From Chroococcales cyanobacterium PMM_0086 (lineage in GTDB: Bacteria; Cyanobacteriota; Cyanobacteriia; Cyanobacteriales; Microcystaceae), in NCBI GenBank assembly GCA_949127655.1, contig CASBQB010000312.1, forward strand, positions 1-35,361: DNA of 35,361 nt, written 5' to 3'. The notes beneath the pieces are model-generated. The model was not told the origin of the DNA and did no database searches. It saw only the letters and a list, made by a program, of their open reading frames with translations. Positions 21,045-29,783 of the stretch are shown piece after piece; the stretch's first letter is position 1, and the number at the start of each line of letters is the position of its first letter. The translations under genes were made by a program, and so were the position numbers.

Positions 21045-22022
21045 ATGAAAATAAAGCTAGTTCTTAAAACAAGCTCGTTCATTCTTGCAAGTCTGGGGTT
21101 AATTACCATTGCTCCATCTAGCAGTCAAGCCAATGTTCTAGGATTTTATCAAACTGTATTCAACACTGACTGGACTCAGGTTGGTTATGGAGGAATGAGG
21201 GGTCTTGGGACAGGTTCTGTCAACCTAACAGGTGTGACAGGAACAGTAACCAGATCCTATCTTTACTGGCATGGACCAACTAACTCCTCTGATGCTAACA
21301 TCAACGCTAGTGTTACCTTTAATGGCACACCCATCACAGGTACAAATATTGGGTTTTCTGATGACAACTTTTGGGGTTTTGATAATAGTCAAGCCTATAG
21401 AGCAGATGTCACTAGTCTAGTGAGCGGAAACGGTCTTTACTCTCTAGCCAATTTTAACAAGTCATCGGCAGAAATTAATGGAGTTTCACTCCTAGCTTTC
21501 TTTGATGATGGTGATAGCAGCAATAACCGGGATGTAGTACTATATGAGGGCAATGATGCTAACTTTGCTAACCAATTTGATCCTGCTGGCTGGGATGCTA
21601 CTCTCTCAGGCATTAACTACAGTTCAGGAACAGCAAGTCTAGTTGCGGGCGTATCAGATGGACAAAATTTTGGTGCCTCTGATGATGGAGATTTGCGAGT
21701 TAATGGAACAATAATTGCTTCTGGAGGCATATTCCAAGGCAACTCAGTACCTAACGGACCTGGTGGTCCTAATAATGGAGGACTCTGGGATGTAAGAACT
21801 TTTGATATTACTTCCTCTCTCTCTCCAGGGACTAATAGCTTAAATGTCACTCTTCAAGCAGGTGTTAATGATGCTCTAAGCTTAATTAGCTTAGCAATAG
21901 ATCTACCAGCTGGTGCTGCGCCACCGTTACCTACTAGTACTCCTGAACCTAGTTTACTTTTAGGTCTCTTGACTCTGGGCATACTTGGTCTAGGGACAAC
22001 TCGGAAGGGAAAAACTCATTAG
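21045..22022 (+). CDS. Exported PEP-CTERM protein with DUF3344-like body
   Basis: A 325-residue secreted protein. The signal peptide runs to about residue 29 (hydrophobic SFILASLGLITIAPSSSQA). The beta-rich Gly/Asn/Ser body includes VTRSYLYWHGPTNSSD, ADVTSLVSGNGLYSLAN, GVSLLAFFDDGDSSNNRDVV and SPGTNSLNVTLQAGVND, resembling DUF3344-type extracellular domains. The end is a PEP-CTERM tripartite signal: TPEPS (299-303), a hydrophobic helix LLLGLLTLGILGLG, and basic RKGK. An exosortase, not encoded here, should process it. A role in the extracellular matrix or biofilm is inferred from the class, not from this gene. A strong hairpin follows the stop. Confidence 0.82.
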   Translation: MKIKLVLKTSSFILASLGLITIAPSSSQANVLGFYQTVFNTDWTQVGYGGMRGLGTGSVNLTGVTGTVTRSYLYWHGPTNSSDANINASVTFNGTPITGTNIGFSDDNFWGFDNSQAYRADVTSLVSGNGLYSLANFNKSSAEINGVSLLAFFDDGDSSNNRDVVLYEGNDANFANQFDPAGWDATLSGINYSSGTASLVAGVSDGQNFGASDDGDLRVNGTIIASGGIFQGNSVPNGPGGPNNGGLWDVRTFDITSSLSPGTNSLNVTLQAGVNDALSLISLAIDLPAGAAPPLPTSTPEPSLLLGLLTLGILGLGTTRKGKTH

Positions 22023-22276: not shown

Positions 22277-22377
22277 GGGAGAAATCTTAGTATCCGATTT
22301 AAGTGCGTCTTAGCATAACTCTTTTGATCTACAGTTTTTCTCTTTCTTTAAGTGTTAATAGCACCACGGAAATTAAG

Positions 22378-24222
22378 ATGAGGTTAAGAGTTATCGTGAT
22401 AATTTTCCTGTTAACACTGAGTATTAGTTTAATAGGAGATACTTCTGTTGCCTCATCTGCATGGACAGAAGAATTAGAGCAAGAATGGAATGAAAGAGTG
22501 CAGACTATTCTGCAAGCTTATAGCAATATTGAATACTATGGAAGCAATTATGGAGAGAATGAAAAAAAGTCTTATCCTCGGGCGATGTTTGACCTTCTAT
22601 TGGGTCACAGGGAGAAAGCTTTAGAGTTCCTTCAGTCAGAGGATAGTGAAGCTAAAGAACACGCGCAGACAGAGGGTATAGACTATTATTATTGTTTTAC
22701 CCTCAAGGGACAGATTAGGAAATACTTTCTCTTTGGTCAAGATTTAGATCCTAATTATAAACAGAGAATGTTTCTCGGTGCTAAAAAATGGACAGCTAGT
22801 GATCCTTTAAAGCGTCCTCATCCCCTTTATGGTTATGGGAATAATCAAGGTAATGACTGGGATATTCGTCATCGTGGTCGTTGGGTGGATGGTAGAAATA
22901 CAGATAATTTAAGGGCAATGCGAGAAACTTCTGTTTATTTAATGGCAGAAGAAACAGGTAATGAACAAACTCGTTTATTATACAAGCAGAAAATCAAACG
23001 TTATGTTTGGGCACTGTATAACATAGGCATGGGTGAATGGGACTCACAGGTTTATCATGGACATACTTTTACACCTTATCTCAATCTCTATGATTTTGCC
23101 AAAGATCCCCAAGTCAAACAACTAGCTAAAAAGGCTTTAGACTGGTTATCTACTGCTGCTGCTATCAAATACTATCATGGCGCGTGGGGTGGACCTGTTA
23201 AGCGAGATTATGGCGATGCTAATCTAGTTTTTGGTGGACTTGCTGCTAAGACATTTTGGTTATATTTTGGGGACAATTCTTTTAAAGATACTGAACCAGA
23301 ATTAGATAGTTTATATTTAATTACTAGTAGTTATCGTCCTCCTTTAGCTGTAGTAGATTTAGCTAGGAAACAATTTAATAAACCTGTAGAAATCATTGCT
23401 AGTAAACCCCTTTATGAAAACTGGAAACCAGGCAATGATCAACAACCTGGTTACTGGGAAACCCAATATTTTGGCAATACCTATCAAATGGGTAGTCTTG
23501 TTTCTGCTTTTCCCGATGGTGATGTAGCACCTTTTAAACTTATGGCTAATAATACTCAAAGAGGCGTTGATTATTTTGTCGCAGCCACAGGAGATAATTG
23601 GTTTAAACCTAGTAAAAATCAGAGTGAAGAAATCGGGCAATATCGTAATCTTTTAATTTGGTTAAAATCCACTTCATCTGAAGATTTTGTCTTTCAATTA
23701 CCCAAGTCAGCCAAAGTAGAAATAGAAGATAATATCTGGTTTATTGAATTAGAAAAAACTTGGTTGGCTATCTATACTATTAATCTCTCATTACCTGTTA
23801 TTACGAAAATTCCTGAGCCAAACTTAGCCCAATTATATAAAGATGAGGAGAGTTGGAAAAGTACACCGCTAGCTAATAGATATAATGGTTTCGCTTTAGA
23901 AGTAGGAGAAGCTAATCAACAAATCTCCACATACAAAGAATTCAAAGAAAAGGTTAAAAAGAAAGGTAAACTAAATCTAACTAAATTAGATAAAGGTGAG
24001 GTTACCTTAATAGGTAGTCAAGGAAATCAACTCAAATATAAATATAATGAGCAGAACTTACTGCCTTTTATTGAACGGGATAGACTAAAATATGATTGGA
24101 TAGAACACCTAGACCTTTATAGAAGTATCAACCCTCAAGCAGAACCTGTCTCTCTAGGTTGGAAAAAAGGACGATTAACTATAAAGACCCTAAAACAACT
24201 CTATAGAATAGTCGGACCGTAA
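22378..24222 (+). CDS. Exported protein of unassigned family, alpha-helical toroid-like
   Basis: A 614-residue protein I do not place in a named family. A clear signal peptide (MRLRVIVIIFLLTLSISLIG, ending near SVASSA) favours ATG 22378 over the GTG at 22303. The N-terminal two thirds are helical with many aromatic and charged pairs: PHPLYGYGNNQGNDWDIRHR, GRWVDGRNTDNLRAMRETSV, ALYNIGMGEWDSQVYHGHTF and YYHGAWGGPVKRDYGDANLV. The last third is beta-rich (FQLPKSAKVEIEDNIWFIEL, EKTWLAIYTINLSLP). An (alpha/alpha) toroid followed by beta-sandwich domains is how polysaccharide lyases and some glycoside hydrolases are built, so a periplasmic or surface carbohydrate-active enzyme is a reasonable guess, not a finding. 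His, Arg, Asn and Tyr within these blocks are candidate catalytic residues. It precedes the radical SAM gene by 56 bases. Confidence 0.75.
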   Translation: MRLRVIVIIFLLTLSISLIGDTSVASSAWTEELEQEWNERVQTILQAYSNIEYYGSNYGENEKKSYPRAMFDLLLGHREKALEFLQSEDSEAKEHAQTEGIDYYYCFTLKGQIRKYFLFGQDLDPNYKQRMFLGAKKWTASDPLKRPHPLYGYGNNQGNDWDIRHRGRWVDGRNTDNLRAMRETSVYLMAEETGNEQTRLLYKQKIKRYVWALYNIGMGEWDSQVYHGHTFTPYLNLYDFAKDPQVKQLAKKALDWLSTAAAIKYYHGAWGGPVKRDYGDANLVFGGLAAKTFWLYFGDNSFKDTEPELDSLYLITSSYRPPLAVVDLARKQFNKPVEIIASKPLYENWKPGNDQQPGYWETQYFGNTYQMGSLVSAFPDGDVAPFKLMANNTQRGVDYFVAATGDNWFKPSKNQSEEIGQYRNLLIWLKSTSSEDFVFQLPKSAKVEIEDNIWFIELEKTWLAIYTINLSLPVITKIPEPNLAQLYKDEESWKSTPLANRYNGFALEVGEANQQISTYKEFKEKVKKKGKLNLTKLDKGEVTLIGSQGNQLKYKYNEQNLLPFIERDRLKYDWIEHLDLYRSINPQAEPVSLGWKKGRLTIKTLKQLYRIVGP

Positions 24223-24278: not shown

Positions 24279-25865
24279 ATGAATGTCCTTCTTTTATATC
24301 CCCGCTTTCCCCAAAGCTATTGGTCGTTTGAGAAAACCCTAGCTTTACTCAATTTTAAAGCCATGTTGCCCCCATTAGGTCTAGTGACAGTCGCGGCTAT
24401 TTTGCCTCAAGAATGGTCATATAAGCTAGCGGATCGCAATCTACGTGAAATAACTGAAGCTGAATGGGACTGGGCGGATTTGGTCATTCTCTCTGCCATG
24501 ATTGTACAAAAGGAAGATTTACTAGTCCAAATTCAAGAAGCCAAGCGTAGGGGGAAAAAAGTAGCAGTAGGAGGACCTTACGCAACCGCCCTGCCCCATG
24601 AAGTGACAGATGTTGGTACAGATTATTTAATTCTAGATGAAGGAGAGATTACCTTACCCCTCTTTGTCGAAGCGATCCTACAGGGTAAACAGTCGGGAAC
24701 CTTCCGTTCTGATGGCAATAGACCAGATGTGACCCTCACCCCGATCCCCCGTTTTGACCTACTAGAATTTGAGTTCTACTCAGAAATGTCGGTACAGTTT
24801 TCGCGCGGCTGTCCCTTTCAATGTGAATTCTGTGATATTATAGTACTATATGGTCGCAAGCCACGCACCAAAACCCCAACACAAATACTAGCAGAACTCG
24901 AATATCTCTATCAACTTGGTTGGAGACGCAGTATTTTTATGGTGGATGATAACTTCATCGGCAACAAGCGCAATGTTAAACTCTTCCTTGAAGAACTTAA
25001 ACCCTGGATGATCGAGCATCAGTATCCTTTCTCCTTCGCTACAGAAGCTTCTGTAGACTTAGCCAAGGAACAGGATTTAATGGATTTAATGGTACAGTGC
25101 AACTTCGGCTCAGTCTTTCTAGGTATTGAAACCCCCGATGAAGAGAGTTTAAAGCTAACCCAAAAGTACCAAAATACCAGAGACTCCCTGAGTGATGCAG
25201 TTCAAGCCATTACCAAAACAGGACTAAGGGTTATGGCCGGGTTTATTATTGGCTTTGATGGAGAGAAGACAGGGGCAGGTGCTAGAATTGTACAGTTTGT
25301 AGAACAAACCTCAATTCCCACAGCCCTGTTCAGTATGCTACAAGCTTTACCAGATACAGCCCTTTGGCATCGACTAGAAAAAGAAGGCAGGCTCCGCAAC
25401 AAGTCTGCTAATATCAATCAAACCACCTTAATGAACTTTGTCCCAACCCGTCCTCTTGAAGAGATAGCAGGGGAGTATGTGGATGCCTTCTATCAATTAT
25501 ATGACCCAGAAAAGTTCCTAGACCGTACATATCGACACTTCCGCATTCTCGGTGAAGCGACATATCCCAACAAAGGCAAAAGAGTAAAAAAACCACTTAA
25601 CTTGCTGGTCATTCGTTCCCTCTTAATTATTTGCTGGAGACAAGGAGTCCTGCGTAAAACCCGTTGGACATTTTGGTACTATCTCTGGAATATGTGGTAC
25701 TACAATCGTGGTGGACTCAGCAGCTATCTCTCAGTCTGTGCCCAAATAGAACACTTTGTTGAGTACAGAGAAATTGTTAAAAAAGAAATTGATCTGCAAG
25801 TAGCGCACTTTTTACAAGAAGAAATAAAAAGCAAAGATAATCTCAAAGTTGAAGTAGTTGTTTAA
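24279..25865 (+). CDS. B12-binding radical SAM protein (DUF4070 type)
   Basis: A 528-residue enzyme of the cobalamin-dependent radical SAM class. The N-terminal B12-binding-like domain covers about 1-150 (MNVLLLYPRFPQSYWSFEKT, then LPPLGLVTVAAILPQEW and VAVGGPYATALPHE). The radical SAM core has C178-x3-C182-x2-C185 in FSRGCPFQCEFCDIIVLYGR, FMVDDNFIGNKRN and GFIIGFDGEKTGAGARIVQF. A DUF4070 C-terminal part follows (TTLMNFVPTRPLEEIAGEYV, LYDPEKFLDRTYRHFR). Relatives include the hopanoid C-2 methylase HpnP, but the motifs SYWSFEKT and CDIIVLYG differ from HpnP (SFGTFEHA, CDIPGLYG). It is probably a methyltransferase of unknown substrate. Confidence 0.88.
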   Translation: MNVLLLYPRFPQSYWSFEKTLALLNFKAMLPPLGLVTVAAILPQEWSYKLADRNLREITEAEWDWADLVILSAMIVQKEDLLVQIQEAKRRGKKVAVGGPYATALPHEVTDVGTDYLILDEGEITLPLFVEAILQGKQSGTFRSDGNRPDVTLTPIPRFDLLEFEFYSEMSVQFSRGCPFQCEFCDIIVLYGRKPRTKTPTQILAELEYLYQLGWRRSIFMVDDNFIGNKRNVKLFLEELKPWMIEHQYPFSFATEASVDLAKEQDLMDLMVQCNFGSVFLGIETPDEESLKLTQKYQNTRDSLSDAVQAITKTGLRVMAGFIIGFDGEKTGAGARIVQFVEQTSIPTALFSMLQALPDTALWHRLEKEGRLRNKSANINQTTLMNFVPTRPLEEIAGEYVDAFYQLYDPEKFLDRTYRHFRILGEATYPNKGKRVKKPLNLLVIRSLLIICWRQGVLRKTRWTFWYYLWNMWYYNRGGLSSYLSVCAQIEHFVEYREIVKKEIDLQVAHFLQEEIKSKDNLKVEVVV

Positions 25866-27611: not shown

Positions 27612-29783
27612 TTAGCCTCTAGCAGAAGTACTGGCGGTGCCTCTTGTGATAAATCTCCATAAAACCTTTACAAGTATGCTTAAAGATGCCAATTCTCCAG
27701 GTGTCTGACAATCTTTCCACTGTCCAGGGCGACAAAAAAGAGTTTCAATTAGTTTTCTTTGTTGAGTGGGCGATATTTCCAAGAAATTTACTTTAATCTT
27801 AAAAGATGAGTCTATTTTCTCTAATTTACTAACTAAAGCTTTTAATTTTAGATTACTTTCTAGTATTTCTATAGTGATTTCATCACCTATCAATAACTGC
27901 TGATTTAAGATTATCTCTGCTCCATTTTCTGAGAGTTTGAGCAGCTTGGCAGATAATAACTTGTCTTGATTAACTGTACATAATATTTTTTCTTCTCTAT
28001 CTAAAGATACCTCTTGATTTAATTGAGGTAGATCTAAAAGAGCTAAGAGAGCAAATATCAAATTAACAATATTATAGATTAGCCAGAAAACAAATATACC
28101 CAATCTTGAGGAATTTAGCGGCATAATCAAAAAAGCTACTAAACCGAGTATATTTATCATCAATATTGTCAATAAAGGGAAAGCTAATTGCCAATTATAA
28201 TAAGCCTTTTCGCGAGATATCCCTTTAGGGGTGACTGTAAAACCCTTACCAAAAGGGTTAAGCATAACTTTTACGACAGTTAACGCGACAGGAAAAAGGC
28301 AAATTAACTCATAAATGTCAGCAAAGACTGCAGAACGTGAGCGCAAATTCAACCAAGAAAAAACCAGTATATTGAAAAAGTAAAAAGGTAGAAAAATATA
28401 GATTAAATCATTGTTAGAAGTCAGAACTGGACTTAAATTAAATAGGAGACAGGGCAAAGGTAGTACCATAAATAAGATGCGCGGAAAGTTATCAAACCAA
28501 TGTAAAATTCCCTCTAAATGAACCAATCTTTGACGTATAGTTAAGCCCTTAATAGTGAGAGGATTAGATTTAATAAAGAAAGCTTGTAAAGTTCCCCTAG
28601 CCCATCTTAAGCGCTGTTCAACATGATTGGCTATACTTTCAGCCGCTAAACCAGCACTCAACTTTTCATTAAGATAAATCAGTTGATATCCTCTAGCAGA
28701 TAACTCAATACCTGTAAAATAATCTTCGCTGAGTGAGTCGGTTACAAAATAACCTATCTCAGTTAGTGCTTTACGTCTAACTACAAAAGAAGTTCCCGCA
28801 CAAACAACACTTCCATTAGCATCTTTAATTGGTTGTATTTGTCGATAGAATATCTCTTCTTCTGGCGGAATAATTTTCTCTAACCCTAGATTAAGAGAAA
28901 TTGGATCGGGATTATAAAAAGTTTGGGGAGTTTGAACTAAGGCAACTTGAGAACTTTCAAAAAAGCCCACTGTTCTAGTGAGAAAATTGCTAGTTGGAAT
29001 AAAGTCAGCATCAAAGACAGCTACTAATTCTCCTTCTGTTTTATCGAGTGCATGATTAAGATTACCTGCTTTAGCATAAAGATTATCACCACGCGTAAAA
29101 TATTGACAGCCTAACTCTTTAGCTAACTTAGCAATTTCGGGACGGTTAGTATCATCTAACAGATAGATGCTCTTATTAGCATAGTCTAGAGCTTGACAAC
29201 CAATGATTGTACGTCTGAGAATAAAATCAGGTTCATTATATGAAGGAATGAGAATATCTACAGAAGGCGAATAAAAATCACTTTGGACAGCTTGACTGTA
29301 CAATTGTGCCCTTTCACTCTGATTACTTACTCTAAGCATTAAAAATAGAGAAATTAAACTGCGAGTAATAAAAAAAAGTTCTAGTAGAAATATCCCTAAA
29401 CTTAAAAAAGCATCTAAAGGAGTAGCTAGGTTGAGTGTAGTTAGAGAACGCCAGAGTAAGTAACGTACTAATAATGCTAAGAGAATCGAGATAATTATTA
29501 AACGTGACCAAGTTTTAGGCTGTGGAGAGAGGCGAATAATTGCTAATGCGAAGAGAGAGAAGATGACAGTAGGTAAAAATACCTGATAGTGATGCTCAAA
29601 ACTAGGCGTTTGGACTAGAAAGAGTAAAGGACTTTCCCAAGTTAAAAAAGAGGATATACTGTCACAATTAAATTGAGCAATTAACCAAGCAATCAAAAAT
29701 CCGACTATTCCTAAAACAGCTAACCTAAAAAGTTTTTGGGGGGTAGGGTTTTTCTGGGAAATGGTCCAAAAAGATTGCAACAT
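27612..29783 (-). CDS. Cellulose-synthase-like GT2 glycosyltransferase with degenerate PilZ-like tail
   Basis: A 723-residue polytopic membrane enzyme for a beta-linked polysaccharide. Three or more N-terminal membrane helices lead to the GT2 domain: VDILIPSYNEPDFILRRTII (175-194), LLDDTNRPE with Asp210/211, FDADF with D258-A-D260, S352-E-D354 and Q390-R-L-R-W394, the processive-synthase motifs. Several more helices follow, for example LPCLLFNLSPVL and ALTVVKVMLNPFGKGF. A C-terminal PilZ-like domain (about 590-690) has LKLSENGAEIILNQQL, but the RxxxR that binds cyclic-di-GMP is not visible (REEKI instead). The product cannot be named as cellulose with certainty. It is last in a minus-strand run with the hydrolase (36 bases) and ubiA. 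Confidence 0.88.
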   Translation of the reverse strand: MLQSFWTISQKNPTPQKLFRLAVLGIVGFLIAWLIAQFNCDSISSFLTWESPLLFLVQTPSFEHHYQVFLPTVIFSLFALAIIRLSPQPKTWSRLIIISILLALLVRYLLWRSLTTLNLATPLDAFLSLGIFLLELFFITRSLISLFLMLRVSNQSERAQLYSQAVQSDFYSPSVDILIPSYNEPDFILRRTIIGCQALDYANKSIYLLDDTNRPEIAKLAKELGCQYFTRGDNLYAKAGNLNHALDKTEGELVAVFDADFIPTSNFLTRTVGFFESSQVALVQTPQTFYNPDPISLNLGLEKIIPPEEEIFYRQIQPIKDANGSVVCAGTSFVVRRKALTEIGYFVTDSLSEDYFTGIELSARGYQLIYLNEKLSAGLAAESIANHVEQRLRWARGTLQAFFIKSNPLTIKGLTIRQRLVHLEGILHWFDNFPRILFMVLPLPCLLFNLSPVLTSNNDLIYIFLPFYFFNILVFSWLNLRSRSAVFADIYELICLFPVALTVVKVMLNPFGKGFTVTPKGISREKAYYNWQLAFPLLTILMINILGLVAFLIMPLNSSRLGIFVFWLIYNIVNLIFALLALLDLPQLNQEVSLDREEKILCTVNQDKLLSAKLLKLSENGAEIILNQQLLIGDEITIEILESNLKLKALVSKLEKIDSSFKIKVNFLEISPTQQRKLIETLFCRPGQWKDCQTPGELASLSILVKVLWRFITRGTASTSARG

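Follow-up and report, generated by a model that had tools for sequence, protein, structure and literature searches.

The closest described systems are the polysaccharide lyases (PL) of the toroid and beta-sheet fold, whose catalytic residues are given in excerpts of two published accounts. In PL33 these residues are N238, Y291 and H444 (PMC11848413), and catalytic sets have been tabulated for PL8, PL12, PL15, PL17, PL21, PL23, PL35 and PL39 (PMC12088678). A histidine of the beta domain is described as essential in PL33 (H444; PMC11848413) and in PL35 (H401; PMC12088678), and the excerpted text places the histidine of the fold's families either in this domain or, for PL8 and PL23, ahead of the tyrosine by 8-9 residues (PMC12088678). 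The asparagine and the tyrosine are separated by 53 residues in PL33, by 54 in PL12 and PL35 and by 57 in PL17 (PMC11848413; PMC12088678); in heparinase III they are N240 and Y294, 54 apart (PMC12088678).

Here, we focus on a gene in a window of 35,361 nucleotides, the whole stretch of DNA that was analysed, from Chroococcales cyanobacterium PMM_0086. We favour, with a probability of roughly 0.6, the reading that this gene encodes an enzyme which is exported and acts on a uronate polysaccharide outside the cytoplasm, and which belongs to an unnamed family of the (alpha/alpha)n-toroid and beta-sheet fold. The chemistry is likely that of a uronate lyase or epimerase, and the substrate is probably a uronic-acid-containing polysaccharide, most likely the extracellular polymer of the cell itself.

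The gene and its N-terminus

The gene and the features around its start are as follows:

22378..24222, + strand: gene of 614 codons for the putatively exported, toroid lyase-like protein P0001 (ORF list and relatives)
22303..22377, + strand: in-frame GTG extension, an alternative start judged less likely (25 additional residues, giving 639 aa)
22378..22455, + strand: signal-peptide-like N-terminus, residues 1-26 (by eye)

The ATG lies at 22378 and the stop at 24222, so that the coordinates, length and frame of the 614-residue ORF in the initial annotation are correct. A chance ORF is excluded, because relatives occur at 37 loci elsewhere, most of them near full-length, and because the 25-row alignment of the closer relatives contains 114 invariant columns. 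The ATG was kept as the start since the hydrophobic stretch MRLRVIVIIFLLTLSISLIGDTSVASS, recognised by eye, comes after it. A lipobox-like motif near the start (regular expression [LVI][ASTVILG][GAS]C) is present in 14 of the 25 sequences of this alignment, and the window protein is among those that lack it. The gene is present as a single copy in the host genome, and a search with a wide family profile revealed no second one.

Relatives in cyanobacteria and Verrucomicrobiota

A scan of genome contigs located the 37 loci in other genomes, nearly all of them cyanobacterial (Microcystis, Crocosphaera, Aphanothece, Chroococcus, Moorena, Symploca, Nostoc, Calothrix and others) and one in a Verrucomicrobia MAG. 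Two alignments are used below: a close alignment, comprising the window protein and 24 of the 37 loci at 43-62% identity to it, and a broad alignment of 46 rows, which includes both phyla and whose most divergent members share 18% identity with the window protein. Matches occur in 26 of 386 cyanobacterial genomes, the host genome counted, and the gene is thus patchy in cyanobacteria; eight of these matches are partial or distant. Five distant matches that were examined make up a second group within the cyanobacteria, in which motifs of the TENH and GEFHSSTYYGY type occur. Among the Verrucomicrobiota, 34 of 288 genomes contain matches, with a maximum of seven matched places per genome, and in genome G386 six matched places fall into five genes.

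Some orthologues look broken: at L026 (6001-7714) the gene is split into two ORFs, at L054 (4607-5038) a fragment of 143 aa is left, and at L039 one TGA lies inside the matched frame. Judged from these sequences, decay of the gene seems to be under way in some lineages. Separately, the contig of L018 is labelled Candidatus Gracilibacteria and has the same gene order as the Hydrococcus locus L004 (common neighbour clusters); it is probably a cyanobacterial contig that was binned wrongly.

The initial annotation had assigned the protein to no recognised family, and this holds for Pfam, NCBIfam and PDB sequences. All Pfam and NCBIfam models stayed below their cut-offs for the window protein, the 25 rows of the close alignment gave scattered weak Pfam matches with none over the cut-off, no Pfam model covered the family region of 10 distant Verrucomicrobiota proteins, and sequence searches of the PDB returned chance-level matches or nothing. 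The window protein and the rows of the close alignment were likewise unmatched by PF16889 and PF07940 (Hepar_II_III_N and _C), Lyase_8_N (PF08124) and PF07470 (GH88/GH105). Matches to G2P_X_C, DUF6792, PANTS-like and other Pfam models were rejected, being under the gathering scores where these were shown and scattered over unrelated families. No literature on the family was found in the open PMC subset for the terms used. As far as these model searches reach, the family is unnamed in Pfam and NCBIfam; a CAZy number may already exist.

Gene neighbourhood and host genome

Immediately downstream (24279-25865, + strand) lies a gene for a B12-binding radical SAM protein with DUF4070, for which all NCBIfam models were below cut-off, and upstream (21045-22022, + strand) one for a secreted protein that matched nothing in Pfam and NCBIfam. 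Of the two neighbours named in the initial annotation, the B12 radical SAM enzyme is therefore borne out, and the PEP-CTERM assignment of the other rests on a C-terminal tail recognised by eye. On the opposite strand, 3.4 kb downstream (27612-29783, - strand), lies a gene for a cellulose-synthase-like glycosyltransferase that carries a PilZ domain at its C-terminus; its CelA score of 459.6 bits falls short of the cut-off of 699.1 bits. This gene was given no weight, because the neighbourhoods are not conserved. The recurrent cyanobacterial neighbours are a thioredoxin, a NIL/4Fe-4S ferredoxin, a short unknown ORF, FtsH and a chorismate-binding enzyme; being unrelated and lacking a carbohydrate link, they led us to reject the gene neighbourhood as a guide to function in cyanobacteria.

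In the Verrucomicrobiota, four sulfatases, two GH28 and one GH1 were found in 114 neighbours of the closer members together with the distant loci L073-L075, and two alpha-L-rhamnosidases and three LacI regulators in 60 neighbours of the distant members. These counts cover 114 of 124 and 60 of 62 neighbours, the remainder being ORFs truncated by the end of a locus, ORFs that overlap others and a single very long ORF. Loci L091 and L098 contributed no neighbours, since the ORF filter had removed the family gene at both; a regular expression for the sulfatase motif matched only two proteins. The evidence leans towards sugar use, but the counts come without a background and are not relied on. One distant Verrucomicrobiota member (L094:5572-8046) carries a fused FGE-sulfatase (sulfatase-modifying factor) domain at residues 608-819, a possible link to sulfated polysaccharide.

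The host genome, which is 90% complete, was searched for two families, GH88 (PF07470) and Hepar_II_III_C (PF07940); neither was detected, and this speaks against a full uronate-degradation route. Taken together with the signal-like N-terminus and the lipobox-like motif in many relatives, it suggests action on the cell's own extracellular polymer and not feeding.

Invariant residues and a profile link to heparinases

The residues on which the argument depends are encoded as follows, with counts from the broad alignment unless stated otherwise:

22906..22908, + strand: N177 codon, candidate carboxylate neutraliser (Asn 46/46; paired by hhalign with the catalytic Asn of heparinase III)
22909..22911, + strand: L178 codon (Leu 35/46; His in 11 distant members, TENH motif)
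23035..23037, + strand: E220 codon, GEWDS motif (invariant, 46/46)
23053..23055, + strand: Y226 codon, candidate acid/base (Tyr 46/46; paired by hhalign with the catalytic Tyr of heparinase III)
23062..23064, + strand: H229 codon, candidate relocated catalytic His (His 25/25 in the close alignment, 34/46 in the broad one)
23203..23205, + strand: R276 codon (invariant, 46/46)
23332..23334, + strand: Y319 codon (invariant, 46/46)
23638..23640, + strand: Q421 codon, beta domain (invariant, 46/46)

T175, S223, D255 and P321 are likewise identical in all 46 rows. The distance from Y226 to R276 is 50 residues throughout the broad alignment, and that from the asparagine to the tyrosine is 49 in the group of the window protein and 53-61 in the distant members. 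A mark of the fold group is a toroid in which the catalytic Asn and Tyr are conserved and lie some 50-60 residues apart; here both residues are present in 46 of 46 rows, at a spacing of 49-61. Of the two sequence blocks that had been singled out as conserved-looking, MGEWDSQVYHGHTF proved to be so, GEWDSxxYxxHT being present in all 25 rows of the close alignment; NNQGNDWDIRHR is variable in close orthologues and absent from the Calothrix/Nostoc branch.

The assignment of N177 and Y226 comes from profile-profile alignment. A family alignment of 47 rows (31 closer and 16 distant members) was compared by hhalign with Verrucomicrobiota heparinase sets of 10 rows (PF16889) and of 24 rows, the latter obtained once PF07940 matches were added. 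Against the 24-row set the family scored 47.7 (P 1.2e-4, probability 54.5%), and 19 unrelated control alignments scored at most 26.2 against the family; against the 10-row set two runs gave 41.5 and 40.6. The 16 distant members alone reached 47.3 with the 24-row set; the 31 closer members alone gave 29.8 (P 0.019) with this set and P 0.085 with the 10-row set, both judged not significant. In the alignment, the partners of N177 and Y226 are N222 and Y276, respectively, of the protein at L100, and by phmmer these two residues of L100 align to residues 216 and 270 of the 4mmi chain (heparinase III; hand-counted). We took 216 and 270 to be N240 and Y294 because the distance of 54 is equal, which would imply an offset of 24. 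A sequence link to PL8, sought with a 10-row PL8-type set, was rejected, since the P of 0.026 came from just 29 columns.

Two of the three key lyase residues, Asn and Tyr, are thus kept and the standard catalytic His is missing. The earlier statement that no standard lyase motif is plain accordingly stands in part: no family model matches and the His is missing, but profile alignment does give a position for both the catalytic Asn and the catalytic Tyr.

Predicted fold

Two AlphaFold2 models were built, the first from the close alignment (pLDDT 80) and the second from the 46 rows of the broad one (pLDDT 92.9, pTM 0.92). Two domains are predicted:

22468..23367, + strand: helical toroid domain, residues 31-330 (AlphaFold2 model, Foldseek/VIA)
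23386..24213, + strand: beta-sheet domain, residues 337-612 (AlphaFold2 model)

The helical N-terminal half and the beta-rich tail that had been described from the sequence are seen in both models, and the predicted structure, an (alpha/alpha) toroid followed by an antiparallel beta-sheet domain, is that of the fold group. In Foldseek searches of the PDB, all 20 matches of the second model at E<=0.001 were toroid polysaccharide lyases or dermatan sulfate epimerase 1, and all 24 matches of the first model at this threshold were lyases of the same fold group. By VIA-align, the best 50 rows for the second model all belong to the toroid lyase and epimerase group, the top row being 1ojo (Z 11.2, rmsd 4.7, 459 residues aligned); rows within 1 Z count as ties, so no single PL family is picked out. 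Foldseek TM-scores for the second model are low (0.21-0.41) and rmsd values high, so the likeness lies in the architecture and spans distant families. The toroid and beta-sheet fold can be predicted with confidence, and the proposal that the layout resembles polysaccharide lyases is upheld by a toroid in the predicted structure and by the agreement of Foldseek and VIA; the outcome named beforehand as refuting it, a structure lacking a toroid, did not arise.

The top Foldseek match of the second model is dermatan sulfate epimerase 1 (6hzn, E 2.4e-8), which also aligns by VIA (Z 9.5, rmsd 7.0, 453 residues) and which, according to excerpts of PMC11848413, has the same fold and acid/base Tyr as PL33. 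The protein might accordingly be a uronate C5-epimerase, which would modify the polysaccharide of its own cell and leave the chain uncut, in the manner of the human enzyme; the single copy in a host without GH88 or Hepar_II_III_C suits such editing. We nevertheless regard this as unlikely. The order of the top matches is not decisive, 8khw following at 4.9e-8, the window protein has Leu and not His next to the Asn, and the several copies per Verrucomicrobiota genome look more like degradation.

Less probable again is an inverting glycoside hydrolase that uses the toroid with the acidic residue at 176 and E220. Carboxylates are nearly or fully conserved at these positions (Asp or Glu at 176 in 45 of 46 rows), and in the first model the GH88/GH105 unsaturated glucuronyl hydrolases 1vd5 (Z 8.8, rmsd 4.5, 248 residues) and 4xuv (Z 8.8, rmsd 4.9, 255 residues) align to the helical domain. 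The GH88/GH105 rows cover only this helical half, though, and lie outside the best 50 VIA rows for the second model; PF07470 is unmatched, and the two-domain match together with the invariant Asn and Tyr suits lyases better.

The position of the histidine

A conserved histidine was not found in the beta domain, as no column in residues 337-612 of the broad alignment holds His in more than 21 of 46 rows. A PL8/PL23-type histidine before the tyrosine is not conserved either, position 217 being Gly in 44 rows and His in two, and position 218 being His in three. The candidate is instead H229, which follows Y226 by three positions and lies on the same predicted helix (226-240). All 34 rows with H229 have L178, and the 11 rows with H178 have Tyr, Phe or Glu at 229; L087, a long-branch divergent member, has neither. 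On the tree, the His state at 178 and 229 needs one change, and an exchange that is a single event gives no statistical proof of compensation; with L087 lacking either His, a reading of the exchange as compensation was rejected. A single His close to the Asn and the Tyr, as seen in 45 of the 46 rows, would fit a working but rearranged dyad.

In an enzyme of the favoured kind, N177 together with, presumably, R276 would hold and neutralise the uronate carboxylate, and Y226 would take the C5 proton and/or protonate the leaving O4. H229, one helical turn away from Y226, might take over from the usual His of the beta domain in tuning the Tyr, and the bond would break by beta-elimination. A fuller version, to which we give somewhat less than even odds, describes an unnamed lyase or epimerase family of cyanobacteria and Verrucomicrobiota whose catalytic His has moved within the toroid, to a place beside the Asn in the distant groups and to Tyr+3 in the group of the window protein, and whose cyanobacterial enzyme is exported or lipid-anchored and shapes the cell's own uronate-rich slime. 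Least probable of all is a non-catalytic polysaccharide-binding or structural protein on a lyase fold, which the missing canonical third residue and the lack of the relocated His in L087 would suit, but for which six invariant polar or aromatic candidate active-site residues over 46 divergent rows are more than a scaffold should need.

Possible significance for slime and polysaccharide turnover

Cyanobacterial slime keeps blooms and mats together, and to our knowledge the enzymes by which cyanobacteria cut or edit their own slime are poorly known. A conserved, exported protein of predicted lyase shape in Microcystis, Crocosphaera, Moorena and their relatives is thus a concrete gene target; going by the models, it may trim slime polysaccharides, and the suggestion that it is a new carbohydrate-active enzyme is plausible. 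Furthermore, since Pfam and NCBIfam have no label for the family, which is many-copied in Verrucomicrobiota, gene tallies of polysaccharide degradation made from these libraries miss it. The moved His, if true, would offer a clean case in which to probe the limits of rearrangement of the lyase dyad.

Comparison with known systems

With heparinase III (PL12), the family shares the predicted toroid and beta-sheet fold and a catalytic Asn and Tyr that align by profile with N177 and Y226; it differs in that the beta-domain histidine H424 of heparinase III has no conserved equivalent, and in an Asn-Tyr distance of 49 here versus 54. The hyaluronate and chondroitin AC lyases of PL8 provide the top VIA rows (1ojo) and share the Asn and Tyr, and PL8 enzymes carry an Arg after the Tyr. 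The published table lists no beta-domain His for PL8, a further likeness, but puts a His nine positions ahead of the Tyr (H233/Y242 in 1RWA; PMC12088678, Table 4), where most members of the present family have Gly. PL33 (BtPL33HA) and PL35 (GAGases II and VII) are top-ranking Foldseek matches in both models and have a similar Asn-Tyr spacing, whereas, by the excerpts, they need H444 and H401 of the beta domain (PMC11848413; PMC12088678), for which no conserved counterpart is seen here. Human dermatan sulfate epimerase 1 differs in being an epimerase and a human protein at about 10% identity, and the window protein has Leu beside the Asn. Judged by sequence, it is on the histidine that the family stands apart from the named PL families, with the Asn and Tyr held in common.
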